A DNA stretch of 12,207 nt from NCBI GenBank assembly GCA_003554235.1, contig PWFY01000036.1:1-12207 (forward strand), in the 5' to 3' direction. The position numbers and the translations under genes are program-made. The notes below the pieces were generated by a model. That model did not search any database, was not told the DNA's origin, and was given only the letters and a program-made list of their open reading frames with translations. The DNA comes from Candidatus Aenigmatarchaeota archaeon. Lineage in GTDB: Archaea > Aenigmatarchaeota > Aenigmatarchaeia > PWEA01. Positions 1,589 through 9,585 of this stretch are shown here, in pieces. The stretch's first letter is position 1. Each line of letters begins with the position of its first letter.

Positions 1589-2830
1589 CTATATCTTCGC
1601 CCCCTTTAACATATCTAGATTGTTTTCGTAGTAGAAGTTCCTTATATCGTCTATACCCTCCTTTATCATAGGAAGCCTTTCTAAGCCCAGGCCCCATGCC
1701 AATACAGGAACATCGATGCCCAGTGGTTTGGTGACCTCTGGTCTGAATATTCCTGCTCCTCCCATCTCAAGCCATTCGTCCCTTTCTTCGAAGTATACCT
1801 CCGGTTCAACTGACATTTCAGTGTAGGGAAAGTAGCCAGGTCTGAACCTTACCTTCTCGAAACCAAGTTTACTGTAGAACTTTTCGAGATATCCAAGAAG
1901 ATTTTGAAATGTGACGTCCCGGCTCACTACAATTCCTTCTACCTGCATGAACTCTGGTAGATGGGAATAGTCCAGGGTTTCGTTACGGAAAACTCTATCC
2001 ACCGAGAACAGTTTTGCAGGAGGTTCTATCTCTGCTAGTTTTCTAGCGCTAACTGCAGTTGTATGTGTCCTTAAAACAGGCTTCCTTGATATATCCTTTT
2101 CCCAACTGTAGCCCCAGCCCTCTGCCCCGTCGCCCCCTTCTTCATGCATTTTTTTGACAGAGTTTACCAGTTTTTTTGAGGGAAGGTCCGTTTGAGAAGG
2201 CTTCTTCATATAGAAAGTGTCCTGCATGTCCCTTGCGGGGTGATCTTGAGGTATAAAAAGCGCGTCCATGTTCCAGAAACTGGATTCTATGTAGGGTCCC
2301 TTCATCTCTTCGAAACCCATATCAAAGAAAACCCTTCTTATTTTTTCTATGTAATACGAGAGAATATGTTTCCTTCCGGGGTATTTTTTCTTTCCTGTCT
2401 TCGTCGGATCGTATTTTTTGAACTCTGCTTTTTTCCATAAACCCGTTTTTATAAGCTCAGGAGTAAGATTGGATATTCGGCCTTTTTTAAGCTGGTCCTC
2501 TGCCTGCTTGACGACATCTTCACGGACCTCTTCTACGAGGTTTCTATCAACAAGTCTCCTCCTCGTTTTTTCATCCAGTTCTTCGCCATCTCTCGCACTT
2601 TCAAGTGCCCTCTGGAGTTCTATTTCTTCCGGCCTCTTCTTTATGCGTACAGTTCTGTCTTCTATTTCTATCCATCCGTTCTTAAGGGCCCAGTTTATGG
2701 CTATAGATGATTTCTCTACATTCTGTTTCACTTCGTCTATGCTGGCCTCTTCTTCTAGAAATTCAATGAGCCTCTTCTCAGGGAGACCTTTGTCCAGGTA
2801 GCTCTTTCCTTCTTTTGTAAGTCTGTACAT
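1589..2830 (-). CDS. pheS: Phenylalanyl-tRNA synthetase alpha subunit, short N terminus
   Basis: Catalytic alpha subunit of PheRS, forming Phe-AMP and transferring Phe to tRNA-Phe; 413 residues. Class II signatures are clear: HPARDMQDTFY at 197-207, LRTHTTA at 253-259, motif 2 FSVDRVFRNETLD at 275-287, and motif 3 GLGLERLPM at 380-388. The N terminus begins directly at a winged-helix segment (YRLTKEGKSYL) that in typical archaeal PheS follows another winged helix of roughly 60-80 residues. The protein therefore seems to lack the first DNA-binding-like repeat. The frame upstream closes at a stop about 15 codons before this ATG, and AGGTG lies six bases upstream of it, so the start is well supported. 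The gene follows the flippase by 29 bases and precedes pheT by one base. Confidence 0.96.
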   Translation of the reverse strand: MYRLTKEGKSYLDKGLPEKRLIEFLEEEASIDEVKQNVEKSSIAINWALKNGWIEIEDRTVRIKKRPEEIELQRALESARDGEELDEKTRRRLVDRNLVEEVREDVVKQAEDQLKKGRISNLTPELIKTGLWKKAEFKKYDPTKTGKKKYPGRKHILSYYIEKIRRVFFDMGFEEMKGPYIESSFWNMDALFIPQDHPARDMQDTFYMKKPSQTDLPSKKLVNSVKKMHEEGGDGAEGWGYSWEKDISRKPVLRTHTTAVSARKLAEIEPPAKLFSVDRVFRNETLDYSHLPEFMQVEGIVVSRDVTFQNLLGYLEKFYSKLGFEKVRFRPGYFPYTEMSVEPEVYFEERDEWLEMGGAGIFRPEVTKPLGIDVPVLAWGLGLERLPMIKEGIDDIRNFYYENNLDMLKGAKI

Positions 2831-6154: not shown

Positions 6155-7303
6155 TCAGCCTTTCGAATGCTTGCCCCTACCCCTCCTCCTTTCAACCTGT
6201 TTTTCATGATACTTGGTAATCTGCTTATCTAGTTTTTCTAGGCATCCCTGGACAGAGTCCATGATCTCCCATTCCCAGTCCTGTTTTGCAACAAACATAC
6301 CGTCTGAGGTAAACATTCTTGCTCTGGTGCAGTACTGCTCCTTCTTGCCTTCCACATTCTGTCTCTTGACATGTAGTATAAGCCTTTCGACACCCCTGAA
6401 CATCCTCCCCGCCTTTTCCACCTTTCTTTCTGCGGCGTCCAGAACCTTGTCCTTTGCAAAGGAATCAAGATCCTTTATACCTGCAACCTGTATATATGCT
6501 CCACCTTCCTCCTTTCTTGATGCTATCATTTCTATTATATCCTTTGGAGTTATCATCCCGATGGGCTTGCCACTATCTTCTAATACTGCATAAAGTCCTT
6601 CTTGGCTGGTCATCTTTTCCAAAACTTCTTTCATGCTCGAGCCTCTGGGAAGTGTTATGGGAGTTCTTGTCATTATTCCGGTAACAGGGGTGTCCCTTTC
6701 AGGTACAGATTCGCCCTGTTTTTCACCTAACTTCATGGCATCTTCGGGCTTCAAGGTCTTCAGAATGCCGGATAGATCTACAGAACCTACAAGCATTCCA
6801 TCATCATCTACAACAGGGAGTCTTGATATTCTATTTTCCCTCATTAGTGCCCTGGCCTTGCCTATGGTTTTATCTTTGTTTATTGTTATGACCTCTGTAG
6901 AAACTTCCTTGGCTTTCTTATCACCAAGTCCGCCGTCCTTTGAAACAGCGTCTATGAACTCCTTCTGGGATATTATCCCTATTACATTGTCCTTTTCGAA
7001 GACAGGTACAGATCTGGATCCTGTTTCTAACATCTTCTCTGCCAAATCCACGATATTTGTGTCGTGCTCTATCCTTGGAGGGTGTACCATAAGCCTTTTA
7101 ACCTTTGTATTGGGCGAAACCTTCCTCTGTATGATTCTCCTCCAGGTTATCATGCCCTTTAACTCTTTCTTTTTCATGACCGGTGCTGAAAAGGCTTCTT
7201 CCTTTTTTATTTTACCAAGGACGTCTTTTAAGCTGTCATCAGGCGATACTGAAAAGTAGTTTTTATCGGCAATTTCCTTTGCAGTGAGATTGTCAATATT
7301 CAT
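6155..7303 (-). CDS. Four-CBS-domain protein with C-terminal HPF-like ribosome hibernation domain
   Basis: 382 residues. Four CBS modules can be followed at about 8-59, 67-122, 131-186 and 206-262, recognised by recurring SRSVPVFEKDNVIGIIS-type and RLPVVDDDGMLVGSVD-type strands. These would form two Bateman modules, which in known families bind adenine nucleotides. Residues about 268-366 have the beta-alpha-beta-beta-beta-alpha order and spacing of the HPF/RaiA (S30AE) domain. The order is a first strand IQVAG, a helix to about 300, strands through 343 (ending in QDWEWEI), then a helix SVQGCLEKLDKQITKYHEK. A strongly basic tail (RRRGRGKHSKG) follows, suited to rRNA contact. Likely role: an energy-sensing factor that binds and silences ribosomes. 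I recall CBS proteins being reported as archaeal hibernation factors but cannot check this here. The ATG overlaps the endA stop (ATGA) and has a strong GGAGG. Confidence 0.82.
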   Translation of the reverse strand: MNIDNLTAKEIADKNYFSVSPDDSLKDVLGKIKKEEAFSAPVMKKKELKGMITWRRIIQRKVSPNTKVKRLMVHPPRIEHDTNIVDLAEKMLETGSRSVPVFEKDNVIGIISQKEFIDAVSKDGGLGDKKAKEVSTEVITINKDKTIGKARALMRENRISRLPVVDDDGMLVGSVDLSGILKTLKPEDAMKLGEKQGESVPERDTPVTGIMTRTPITLPRGSSMKEVLEKMTSQEGLYAVLEDSGKPIGMITPKDIIEMIASRKEEGGAYIQVAGIKDLDSFAKDKVLDAAERKVEKAGRMFRGVERLILHVKRQNVEGKKEQYCTRARMFTSDGMFVAKQDWEWEIMDSVQGCLEKLDKQITKYHEKQVERRRGRGKHSKG

Positions 7304-8382
7304 GGTTTTATCCTCCTTATTCTATAGTATTTTTTATTTCCGTCTACAACTCCTAAGGTTGGTTTGCTCCTAATATTTAAAGCTAACCTCACGAACCGCG
7401 AGAGCTCAGGATACGACCATTTCGAGTCCCTGTTTACTGCGTGTACAACCCATTTTGTGTGTTCGTCGGGGTTTTTTTGCCCGCGTTTTAACTCTACGCC
7501 TCGGTCGTATACACGGAAATGTGTTCCAAATTTAAACCCGCATTTTACAAGAAAACCCTTCTCCCTTAGATCTTCATATATTTCATATTTTTTATCAAAC
7601 TCTATGTCCACTCCCCTACCTCTTTCCTTTAGTTCACCTACTCCAACTTCTTTTCCTTGGGAAACGACGGTCAGCTTTTTTTTCTTCAGTAGGAACACCG
7701 CCTCTATCAGGTTAAGCTCCACCCTCCCCTTTCTTTTTTTACCAAAGTACATTGGTTCATAAATACTGTCCATGTCCTTCCAGACAATAACCGTGTTGTC
7801 CTCGAGGAAGCCTTCTGCGTGCTCTGTGCCCTTCATATCCCCTTCGAAATCATCGTTTAGCCTCCCCTCCTCCTCGACCTCATAATATGTGACATCTCCC
7901 TCTTCGTCTACGATCCCAAGGGCAAGACCGCTTCTTATATTTTTAGCACTTCCAAGCTTTTCTGACTTTTCCTTCAGCGAAAATTCGGAGTCTGTTCTGA
8001 CTACGTCCAACAGCCACTTAACGTGCTTCAGCTTTTTCTCATCTTTATCAAACGAAACCCCTCTTTCATAAACTCTTAGATCACACGGGAAGGAATGCCC
8101 TGGCCTTACTACAAACCCTCTGTTTCTTAGGTCTTGGTAAACAAGGAGCCTTTCGTGGAAGTTTTCCACAAGTTTACAGGCCTTCCTGTAAAATTCTTCT
8201 TCGTCGAGGCTTCCTTCATCGTCCTCGATCTCGAGTTTCCCTCTCTGGATAAGGTTCATAGCTTCCACGGGTTCTAAAATTAAAAGTTCCCCCTCTATTT
8301 TACCATAGCCGCCTACCTGAAACACTTCTTCTGGGTTCTCATCTACAACTATGCTTTCGTCCTTCAGCTTAGCCTTATACAT
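7300..8382 (-). CDS. endA: tRNA-splicing endonuclease, fused two-repeat (alpha2) form
   Basis: 360 residues. The enzyme cuts bulge-helix-bulge motifs at both ends of archaeal introns, leaving 2',3'-cyclic phosphate ends for ligation. The chain holds two tandem endonuclease repeats, each an N-terminal subdomain plus a catalytic-type core: cores at about 76-168 and 263-356. The second repeat has the complete triad: Y292 in FRVYDRG, H308 in DEHTKW and K340 in NIRSK. The first repeat aligns residue for residue and keeps Y105 and H120, but has G152 where the lysine should be, so it should be structural or inactive. The two cores are unusually alike by eye (RVY-RG, H-KW, A-NIRS, LG-VD shared). The ATG at 8382 lies 20-28 bp from a TTTAAATTA box, consistent with a leaderless mRNA. 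It overlaps the CBS-HPF gene by ATGA. Its natural substrates include the tRNA-Phe at 9365-9528. Confidence 0.94.
   Translation of the reverse strand: MYKAKLKDESIVVDENPEEVFQVGGYGKIEGELLILEPVEAMNLIQRGKLEIEDDEGSLDEEEFYRKACKLVENFHERLLVYQDLRNRGFVVRPGHSFPCDLRVYERGVSFDKDEKKLKHVKWLLDVVRTDSEFSLKEKSEKLGSAKNIRSGLALGIVDEEGDVTYYEVEEEGRLNDDFEGDMKGTEHAEGFLEDNTVIVWKDMDSIYEPMYFGKKRKGRVELNLIEAVFLLKKKKLTVVSQGKEVGVGELKERGRGVDIEFDKKYEIYEDLREKGFLVKCGFKFGTHFRVYDRGVELKRGQKNPDEHTKWVVHAVNRDSKWSYPELSRFVRLALNIRSKPTLGVVDGNKKYYRIRRIKP
7311..7316 (-). promoter_or_regulatory. Strong Shine-Dalgarno site of the CBS-HPF gene
   Basis: GGAGGA lies seven bases upstream of the ATG at 7303, inside the 3' end of endA. It is the best anti-16S match I noticed in the window. 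It indicates high translation initiation from an internal cistron and confirms the start. Confidence 0.8.
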
Positions 8383-9313: not shown

Positions 9314-9403
9314 ATTACCTTATAACACTGGTTTCCTAATACTAATAAGCTTTTGTATAAGCAATGGTGGGAGGGGAGGGATTTGAACCCCCGACAACCA
9401 GAT

Positions 9404-9445
9404 TTCGAAAACGGGGTTTTCATATCTTGAAAACCCTTTCAGGAT
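9404..9445 (-). other. Canonical 42-nt intron at 37/38 of tRNA-Phe
   Basis: It interrupts the anticodon loop after G37. A strong hairpin GGGTTTTC/GAAAACCC with a seven-base loop occupies 9414-9436. The central helix of the splice motif is weaker than in the first intron: U33-G34-A35-A36 or C32-A35 against UUCG with a wobble or mismatch. AT at both borders allows one- or two-base shifts giving the same mature tRNA; I chose the position usual for archaeal introns. Confidence 0.85.
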
Positions 9446-9460
9446 CTTCAGTCTGGCGCT

Positions 9461-9505
9461 TTCGGGATTCCGCGTCAGCGAAAATCGAAAGCACGCTTTC
9501 GCATT
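9461..9505 (-). other. Non-canonical 45-nt intron in the D arm (22/23) of tRNA-Phe
   Basis: The 5' exon ends CGGGAG and the 3' exon begins AGCGCC. Exon CGGG pairs with intron CCCG as a four-bp central helix. The three-base bulges AGA and AAA are each cut after their second base, which restores the D stem exactly. The outer helix would be supplied by D-stem bases 10-12 with 23-25. The intron has its own hairpin, CGAAAG/CTTTCG with a four-base loop (9486-9501). One-base ambiguity of the border exists because A occurs on both sides. Confidence 0.85.
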
Positions 9506-9554
9506 CTCCCGGACTGAGCTACCCTCCCTGGTAGCCTTTGAGTCTTTGTGAGTC

Positions 9555-9563
9555 AAATATAAA
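9555..9563 (-). promoter_or_regulatory. TATA box of tRNA-Phe
   Basis: TTTATATTT on the minus strand is centred about 31 bp upstream of G1, predicting a 5' leader of about five bases. It lies in the 94-bp gap between the divergent tRNA-Phe and Sec61-beta genes. Confidence 0.55.
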
Positions 9564-9585
9564 AATCTTTTACAGACATCAAAGA

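Follow-up and report, generated by a model that had tools for sequence, protein, structure and literature searches.

Among archaea, tRNA genes that combine canonical with non-canonical introns have been described in Thermoproteales (Sugahara 2008; Fujishima 2010; as related in the accessible text of PMC4090602, PMC4033280 and PMC8450103). There, similar introns recur in different tRNAs and have been read as transposed between tRNAs in the work of Fujishima 2010, again according to the accessible text (PMC4090602, PMC4033280), and the splicing endonuclease is of the (alpha beta)2 type. Multiple or non-canonical introns are likewise recorded for ARMAN-1/2 and Korarchaeum, together with an extra, lysine-carrying endonuclease loop near the active site (accessible parts of PMC12397907, PMC6379350 and PMC4033280). 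In the Asgard archaea Atabeyarchaeia and Freyarchaeia, tRNA introns are reported to be exceptionally abundant, with 92–95% of the tRNA genes carrying them, and to occupy many non-canonical positions (PMC11291895, accessible text). In the available portions of PMC6379350 and PMC12397907, the catalytic triad is described as conserved in four types of the splicing endonuclease EndA, and relaxed specificity is linked to the lysine-bearing loops ASL and CSL.

Here we analysed a 12,207 nt stretch of DNA from a Candidatus Aenigmatarchaeota archaeon (contig PWFY01000036.1), in the following called the window, which holds a tRNA-Phe(GAA) gene with two predicted introns. Like the Thermoproteales genes described in the accessible sources, this gene unites a canonical and a non-canonical intron in one tRNA, and similar introns occur in different tRNAs of its genus. 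Unlike them, it belongs to a DPANN lineage whose two-unit endonuclease lacks the canonical lysine. The parallel to ARMAN-1/2 and Korarchaeum, as far as the accessible text describes them, lies in the introns and in an extra endonuclease loop with lysines; here, however, the loop lies between the catalytic tyrosine and histidine instead of at the presumed ASL/CSL position, the canonical lysine is absent, and the enzyme has two units where that of ARMAN-2 has three. The genus shares its very high intron load and many non-canonical positions with Atabeyarchaeia and Freyarchaeia, for which the accessible text of PMC11291895 describes neither intron families nor such an endonuclease variant.

Because position 22/23 is already among the known archaeal intron positions and multiple introns are known as well (PMC4090602, accessible text), the tRNA-Phe gene alone is a known phenomenon in a new group. 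What is new here, beyond the gene itself, is the endonuclease variant together with the spread of introns. Among the literature matches listed, which covered few subscription journals, we recognised none on tRNA introns or the endonuclease of Aenigmatarchaeota or DPANN, which is weak evidence of absence. The setting resembles a natural experiment, with closely related genomes that have or lack given introns, one intron family in three tRNA loops, and an endonuclease without the catalytic lysine, a residue that all four known types are said to conserve. It opens to experiment both the movement of archaeal tRNA introns and the endonuclease features that permit them.

The tRNA-Phe(GAA) gene

Standard tRNA finders overlook or misname intron-bearing genes of this kind. 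Default ARAGORN reported no tRNA anywhere in the window, nor did Rfam at its gathering threshold, the tRNA-Phe site scoring 20.4 bits at best against a cut-off of 29. With introns enabled, ARAGORN called the unspliced gene a tRNA-Gly with a 75-nt intron. Once 45 nt and 42 nt are taken out, a 77-nt RNA with an encoded CCA results, which ARAGORN assigned to tRNA-Phe(gaa). Read from the sequence, the spliced tRNA has T8, A14, G15, G18, G19, T33, G37, C48, G53, TTCAA and C61 all in place, as had been claimed for its conserved tertiary bases and its CCA end.

Our own intron-aware parser put the 45-nt intron at 22/23. In its first version it scored intron 2 slightly higher at 34/35 than at 37/38 (30.4 versus 29.8); the bonus for 37/38 was raised before the full run and intron 2 was then assigned to 37/38, a site backed by the tRNA-Phe genes of relatives. 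Each intron edge can be moved by 1 nt (A repeats), positions 23/24 and 38/39 giving an identical mature RNA.

Table 1 Location of the features discussed in the window and in related genomes
Feature	Position or locus	Strand	Description
tRNA-Phe(GAA) gene	9365..9528	-	three exons, two introns, encoded CCA; read from 9528 to 9365
Exon 1	9506..9528	-	tRNA positions 1-22, plus one extra D-loop base
Intron 1	9461..9505	-	45 nt, D stem, between positions 22 and 23
Exon 2	9446..9460	-	tRNA positions 23-37
Intron 2	9404..9445	-	42 nt, at 37/38, anticodon loop
Exon 3	9365..9403	-	tRNA positions 38-76, CCA included
TATA-like element TTTTTATAT	9557..9565	-	29-37 nt upstream of the tRNA-Phe gene
tRNA-splicing endonuclease (P0001)	7300..8382	-	360 aa, two fused units, PF01974 E 2.4e-40
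Phenylalanyl-tRNA synthetase alpha subunit	1589..2830	-	same window as tRNA-Phe
tRNA-Phe/EndA neighbourhood	window 9365-9528 + 7300-8382; L055, L056, L061, L051, L049/L054, L202, L205
T-loop introns, G010	L209, L212, L215, L218, L221, L224, L229
T-loop introns, G012	L216, L220, L227, L230, L233
T-loop introns, G008	L211, L217, L234
T-loop introns, G013	L205

The genome of the window (G000; 560,609 bases in 91 contigs, 77% complete) is one of a family of six (G000–G005), all of one genus, in which we identified six tRNA-Phe genes in five genomes. In G003, whose pheS contig ends at 7067 bases, before the place where both genes would be expected, neither tRNA-Phe nor EndA was found. Once stripped of their own 37/38 introns, the tRNAs of G001 and of both G002 genes, all with uninterrupted D arms, are identical to the spliced tRNA-Phe of G000 at 74/74 positions. 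Since three congeneric genes combine an uninterrupted D arm with an identical mature sequence, the inserts in the window's gene are not a matter of chance. The gene of G005 also has an uninterrupted D arm, along with an altered anticodon stem. The D-arm intron is present in G000 and G004; the two genes agree at 70/74 exon positions and at 33/45 positions of this intron, and two of the four exon differences form a compensatory pair, C28-G42 to U28-A42, in the anticodon stem. An intron of 26–61 nt at 37/38 is found in all six tRNA-Phe genes of the genus, and the same nine bases of the TATA-like element occur within 60 nt upstream in all six loci. These comparisons confirmed, at the sequence level, the predicted tRNA-Phe(GAA) gene with introns of 45 nt at 22/23 and 42 nt at 37/38 on the minus strand of the window. 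A search of the 77% complete assembly for a second intact copy returned no tRNA-Phe gene other than this one.

The structure at the first intron turned out to be looser than described in the original prediction. The CCCG at its 3′ end pairs with the CGGG of the D loop, and this central helix, itself foreseen, has 4/4 pairs in both G000 and G004 and lies exactly two nt from either cut. The clean symmetrical bulges of three bases did not hold up. With the helix enforced, the best G000 fold flanks it by internal loops, 5x2 on the outer and 3x3 on the inner side, lengthens it by one A-U pair, and costs 2.3 kcal/mol relative to the unconstrained optimum. The unconstrained optimum of G004 does contain the central helix, but there the intron forms two hairpins and the inner helix is absent. 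A strict bulge-helix-bulge (BHB) motif, with two 3-nt bulges and closing inner and outer helices, was found for intron 1 in neither genome, and its predicted motif is a relaxed BHB. Consistent with the BHB type, removal of the insert restores a canonical tRNA that equals the mature tRNA of the orthologues with uninterrupted D arms. By eye, the corresponding helix of intron 2 has 3/4 pairs with a U33.C mismatch in G000 and G004, and that of the 37/38 intron of G005 has 4/4 pairs.

Multiple introns and D-arm introns had been noted as known mainly from Thermoproteales and relatives; the two introns and the D-stem position both stand. The best segments of the PheS protein are 80, 75 and 71% identical to three Aenigmatarchaeota MAGs named T1Sed10, presumably from hypersaline soda-lake sediment (80% for PWIB01000056.1), and 84% identical to a partial gene (residues 213–413) of a ‘DPANN group archaeon’. 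The host is a member of the Aenigmatarchaeota (DPANN), not of the Thermoproteales, and belongs to a genus in which D-arm introns are themselves common. In a tree of EndA proteins, G000 and G004 do not group together, which requires two changes for the D-arm intron; a single change suffices in 2% of 200 bootstrap trees. Because the forks separating the two are weakly supported, the well-supported branches alone still allowing one change, the intron may have arisen by two gains, by one gain followed by losses, or by transfer.

Introns in other tRNA genes of the genus

For a census of the six genomes, we searched for loci with an intact T arm and then ran the parser on them to place introns. This yielded 140 distinct genes, one of which (L162) remained without a parse; two were dropped (score <20) and a 10-nt item in a variable region was ignored. 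With genes common to several genomes counted once per genome, we obtained 151 entries, 105 of them with an intron, 46 with a D-arm intron and 26 with two or more, counts that are lower limits because genes with T-loop introns escape the scan (two were found later, in G001 and G004). The search for non-canonical introns in other tRNA genes of G000, proposed along with the original prediction, was productive as well: 16 of its 21 entries have an intron, six a D-arm intron and four two or more. Judged from these gene models, D-arm introns are common in this genus. They sit at positions 14–26, four of the 46 being those of tRNA-Trp at 25/26, and occur under 20 of the 37 isoacceptor labels, or about 18 once misparses are merged. 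The misparses, recognised by eye, concern Ala-GGC-like genes of G002 and G003 labelled Ser-GGA, Ile-TAT of G000 labelled Thr-CGT, Thr-TGT of G003 labelled Ser-TGA and one Pro-like gene of G001 labelled Trp; some D-arm assignments, such as that in Thr-GGT of G004, are less certain.

The parser scored 4/4 central-helix pairs for 39 of the 46 D-arm introns and 3/4 for the other seven, a count that is biased by construction and no proof, since good helices are rewarded. For the same reason, and through the raised bonus, its positions lean toward 37/38. As with Phe, splicing Asp-GTC, Ile-GAT, Leu-GAG and Leu-TAG in silico yields, from end to end of the mature tRNA, the sequence of an orthologue whose D arm is uninterrupted. 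Gly-GCC, Glu-TTC, Leu-CAG, Met-CAT and Pro-TGG come close to their best orthologue of this kind, without reaching identity. The tRNA-Gln(CTG) genes of G000, G002, G003 and G004 (L013, L166, L151, L159) have a predicted D-arm intron of just 11–14 nt.

The 114 introns of at least 18 nt were then aligned to one another wherever their tRNAs bear different labels (6190 pairs), and the highest score in five rounds of dinucleotide shuffling was 29. Among the clean pairs above this level, the D-arm introns of Ile-GAT and Val-CAC, both of G005, reached 72, and the 37/38 intron of Cys-GCA in the same genome scored 50 and 52 against these two. Similarity extended across genomes, with a score of 45 between the 37/38 introns of Cys-GCA in G002 and Phe in G004, and scores of 44 and 42 for the D-arm intron of Ile-TAT in G004 against Cys-GCA of G005 and the 37/38 intron of Val-CAC, respectively. 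For the window's own D-arm intron no significant partner emerged, the best among the matches listed scoring 27 (Val-TAC), inside the shuffled range. The intron pairs Ser-TGA/Thr-TGT (two) and Ser-GGA/Ala-GGC were discarded as one gene under two names, and the pairs Leu-CAG/Leu-TAG and Glu-CTC/Glu-TTC may reflect gene duplication.

A pattern search of the six genomes with a 27-base core of the G005 family, allowing up to 3 mismatches, returned four sites, the two already known and two insertions in the T loops of other tRNA genes, in G001 and G004. The raw score of these insertions against the Val D-arm intron is 64, given here without a shuffled baseline. By sequence similarity, a single intron family occupies three kinds of loop, D, anticodon and T, in different tRNAs. 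The relatives of G000 point to a repeated spread of such inserts among the tRNA genes of the group.

The splicing endonuclease and the RtcB ligase

The endonuclease encoded about 1 kb from the tRNA-Phe gene consists of two PF01974/PF02778 units, and its closest PDB sequences are those of M. kandleri (5X89) and A. fulgidus (1R0V/2GJW). Two PF01974 domains per open reading frame were found in all five family genomes in which the gene was detected, and in the five that have either gene, tRNA-Phe and EndA lie on one contig, 0.8–1.9 kb apart. Like the alpha'2 EndA of A. fulgidus (1R0V, 2GJW), the window enzyme has two fused units with a catalytic C-terminal unit holding tyrosine and histidine, and its predicted architecture is two-unit alpha'2-like in one chain. 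This architecture deserves mention because D-arm and multiple introns had been noted as rare in lineages with alpha2 endonucleases; the nearby enzyme is of the two-unit kind, but in a variant without the canonical catalytic lysine. Unit 2 retains Y292 and H308, while the site of A. fulgidus K287 is occupied by S339, adjoined by K340. The canonical Tyr-His-Lys triad was found in neither unit, unit 1 also having no lysine at this site. The segment YFGKKRKGRVEL aligns with the A. fulgidus enzyme without an insertion, the ASL/CSL location there being our assumption.

Unit 2 has a long loop with a K.G.K motif between the catalytic tyrosine and histidine, which exceeds that of the other two-unit homologues in the comparison by about 5–8 residues. 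We surveyed the 120 homologues listed out of 129 found. All 50 without the lysine have a Tyr-His loop of 15–16 residues with K.G.K, all 65 with a short loop have the lysine and none of them has K.G.K, and five combine a long loop with the lysine; as the homologues are related to each other, these counts are not independent events. A shift of the lysine by one residue cannot account for all cases, because the residue next to the vacant site is lysine in 28 of the 50 lysine-less homologues and differs from it in 22. The accessible part of PMC6379350 ascribes a narrow specificity to alpha'2 enzymes, whereas many introns of this genus have relaxed motifs, and the predicted intron content of the genus argues against a narrow, strict-BHB specificity of the window enzyme.

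The K.G.K loop may do both jobs, replacing the lost catalytic lysine and broadening specificity. In the corresponding evolutionary scenario, EndA of this Aenigmatarchaeota order would have lost its lysine, the role passing to a lysine of the K.G.K loop (or to the neighbouring K340), and the independently evolved loop would have relaxed specificity, in the manner of ASL in ARMAN and CSL in Crenarchaea, enough to let mobile intron families enter D, anticodon and T loops of many tRNAs, the tRNA-Phe gene being one result. We consider this scenario tentative, with the balance tilted somewhat against it.

RtcB was found in four of the six genomes (G002–G005), and in neither G000 (77% complete) nor G001 (83% complete). 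In G004, a single open frame of 960 aa holds the RtcB match (G004:C60:1491-4211) in two parts separated by about 1.2 kb; the gap is perhaps an intein or another in-frame insertion in the tRNA ligase.

Taken together, the window very probably contains a functional tRNA-Phe(GAA) gene whose transcript would lose two BHB-type introns by protein splicing. Intron 2 would be removed at a site occupied in all tRNA-Phe genes of the genus. At 22/23, intron and D loop would form the central helix read by the splicing endonuclease, which would cut two nt beyond it on each strand, and RtcB would then join the exons. The D-arm intron would be polymorphic and belong to a type of insertion that, in this archaeal group, spreads among tRNA genes into their D, anticodon and T loops. 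This explanation is supported by the identity of the spliced sequence with relatives, the compensatory pair in G004, the promoter-like element in six loci, the endonuclease on the same contig, D-arm introns in 46 of 151 entries, the sharing of introns across tRNAs and RtcB in four of six genomes. Speaking against it are the missing RtcB in G000 and G001, a strict BHB that is not the lowest-energy G000 fold, the U.C mismatch at intron 2, the absence of the canonical lysine, which makes the activity of the window enzyme an assumption, the lack of a partner for the window's D-arm intron, and the EndA tree that splits G000 from G004.

Three other readings were rejected. The locus could be a decayed tRNA-Phe pseudogene that has taken up insertions, with a working copy missing from the contigs; this would fit an assembly that is 77% complete and a gene scoring below the tRNA cut-off when unspliced. 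Yet the exons are intact and spliced match the mature tRNA of three congeneric genes, the congeners show a compensatory stem change and the promoter-like element, G004 has both insertions with diverged interiors, and no other tRNA-Phe was found in the G000 assembly, so that we regard decay as very improbable. Hardly any weight falls to a tRNA-Gly(GCC) with a single 75-nt intron: this ARAGORN output for the unspliced gene demands a poor D arm and a poor anticodon arm, the spliced gene is called Phe(gaa), and the relatives, whose identical acceptor and T arms belong to genes that read as Phe, refute it. Inserts created by assembly or binning, conceivable in a draft MAG of 91 contigs, can be dismissed with similar assurance, as a separate assembly (PWIB01000056.1; L020, with the same tRNA-Phe as G004) has both introns in the same places with diverged sequence.

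The introns could also be real and the D-arm intron be removed by a second, undetected endonuclease in place of the window enzyme. The missing canonical lysine and the incomplete assembly would leave room for such an enzyme, but PF01974 matches one G000 gene only (two domains, one open reading frame), and the lysine-less form is the sole one found in the family and in eight sister genomes of the order. We judge a second enzyme unlikely, if less so than decay, and retain two introns processed by the window endonuclease as the preferred explanation.

Sister genomes of the order

The order comprises 14 genomes, 13 of which have EndA. The enzyme is single-unit in all eight genomes outside the window's family and two-unit in the five within, and by eye each of the eight sister enzymes has the long loop and lacks the lysine. 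The vicinity of tRNA-Phe and EndA recurs in G010, at a distance of about 1 kb, and in G013, with both on one 3.3-kb locus. In G010, the D arm of tRNA-Phe is intact, and across the genome Rfam scores for tRNA reach 31.6 bits at most.

Among the resolved tRNA genes of four sister genomes, defined as those passing the scanner in 34 loci (30 for 47 matches, plus four), 26 of 37 have T-loop introns, with 12/13 in G010, 7/11 in G012, 5/11 in G008 and 2/2 in G013. Within genomes, 24 of 98 pairs of T-loop introns score >35 (maximum 28 in five mononucleotide shuffles), and in some cases different tRNAs of the same genome have almost identical introns. The idea that the two-unit fusion of EndA explains the non-canonical introns was weakened by these single-unit sister genomes, which have such introns too. 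By eye, two tRNA genes of G010 (L235 and L218) have long inserts after the anticodon that share a repeated unit, CCTTTACTCGGCGTAAAG..CAACGGAAACTGGCTTGGTGAA, as if introns were nested or duplicated.
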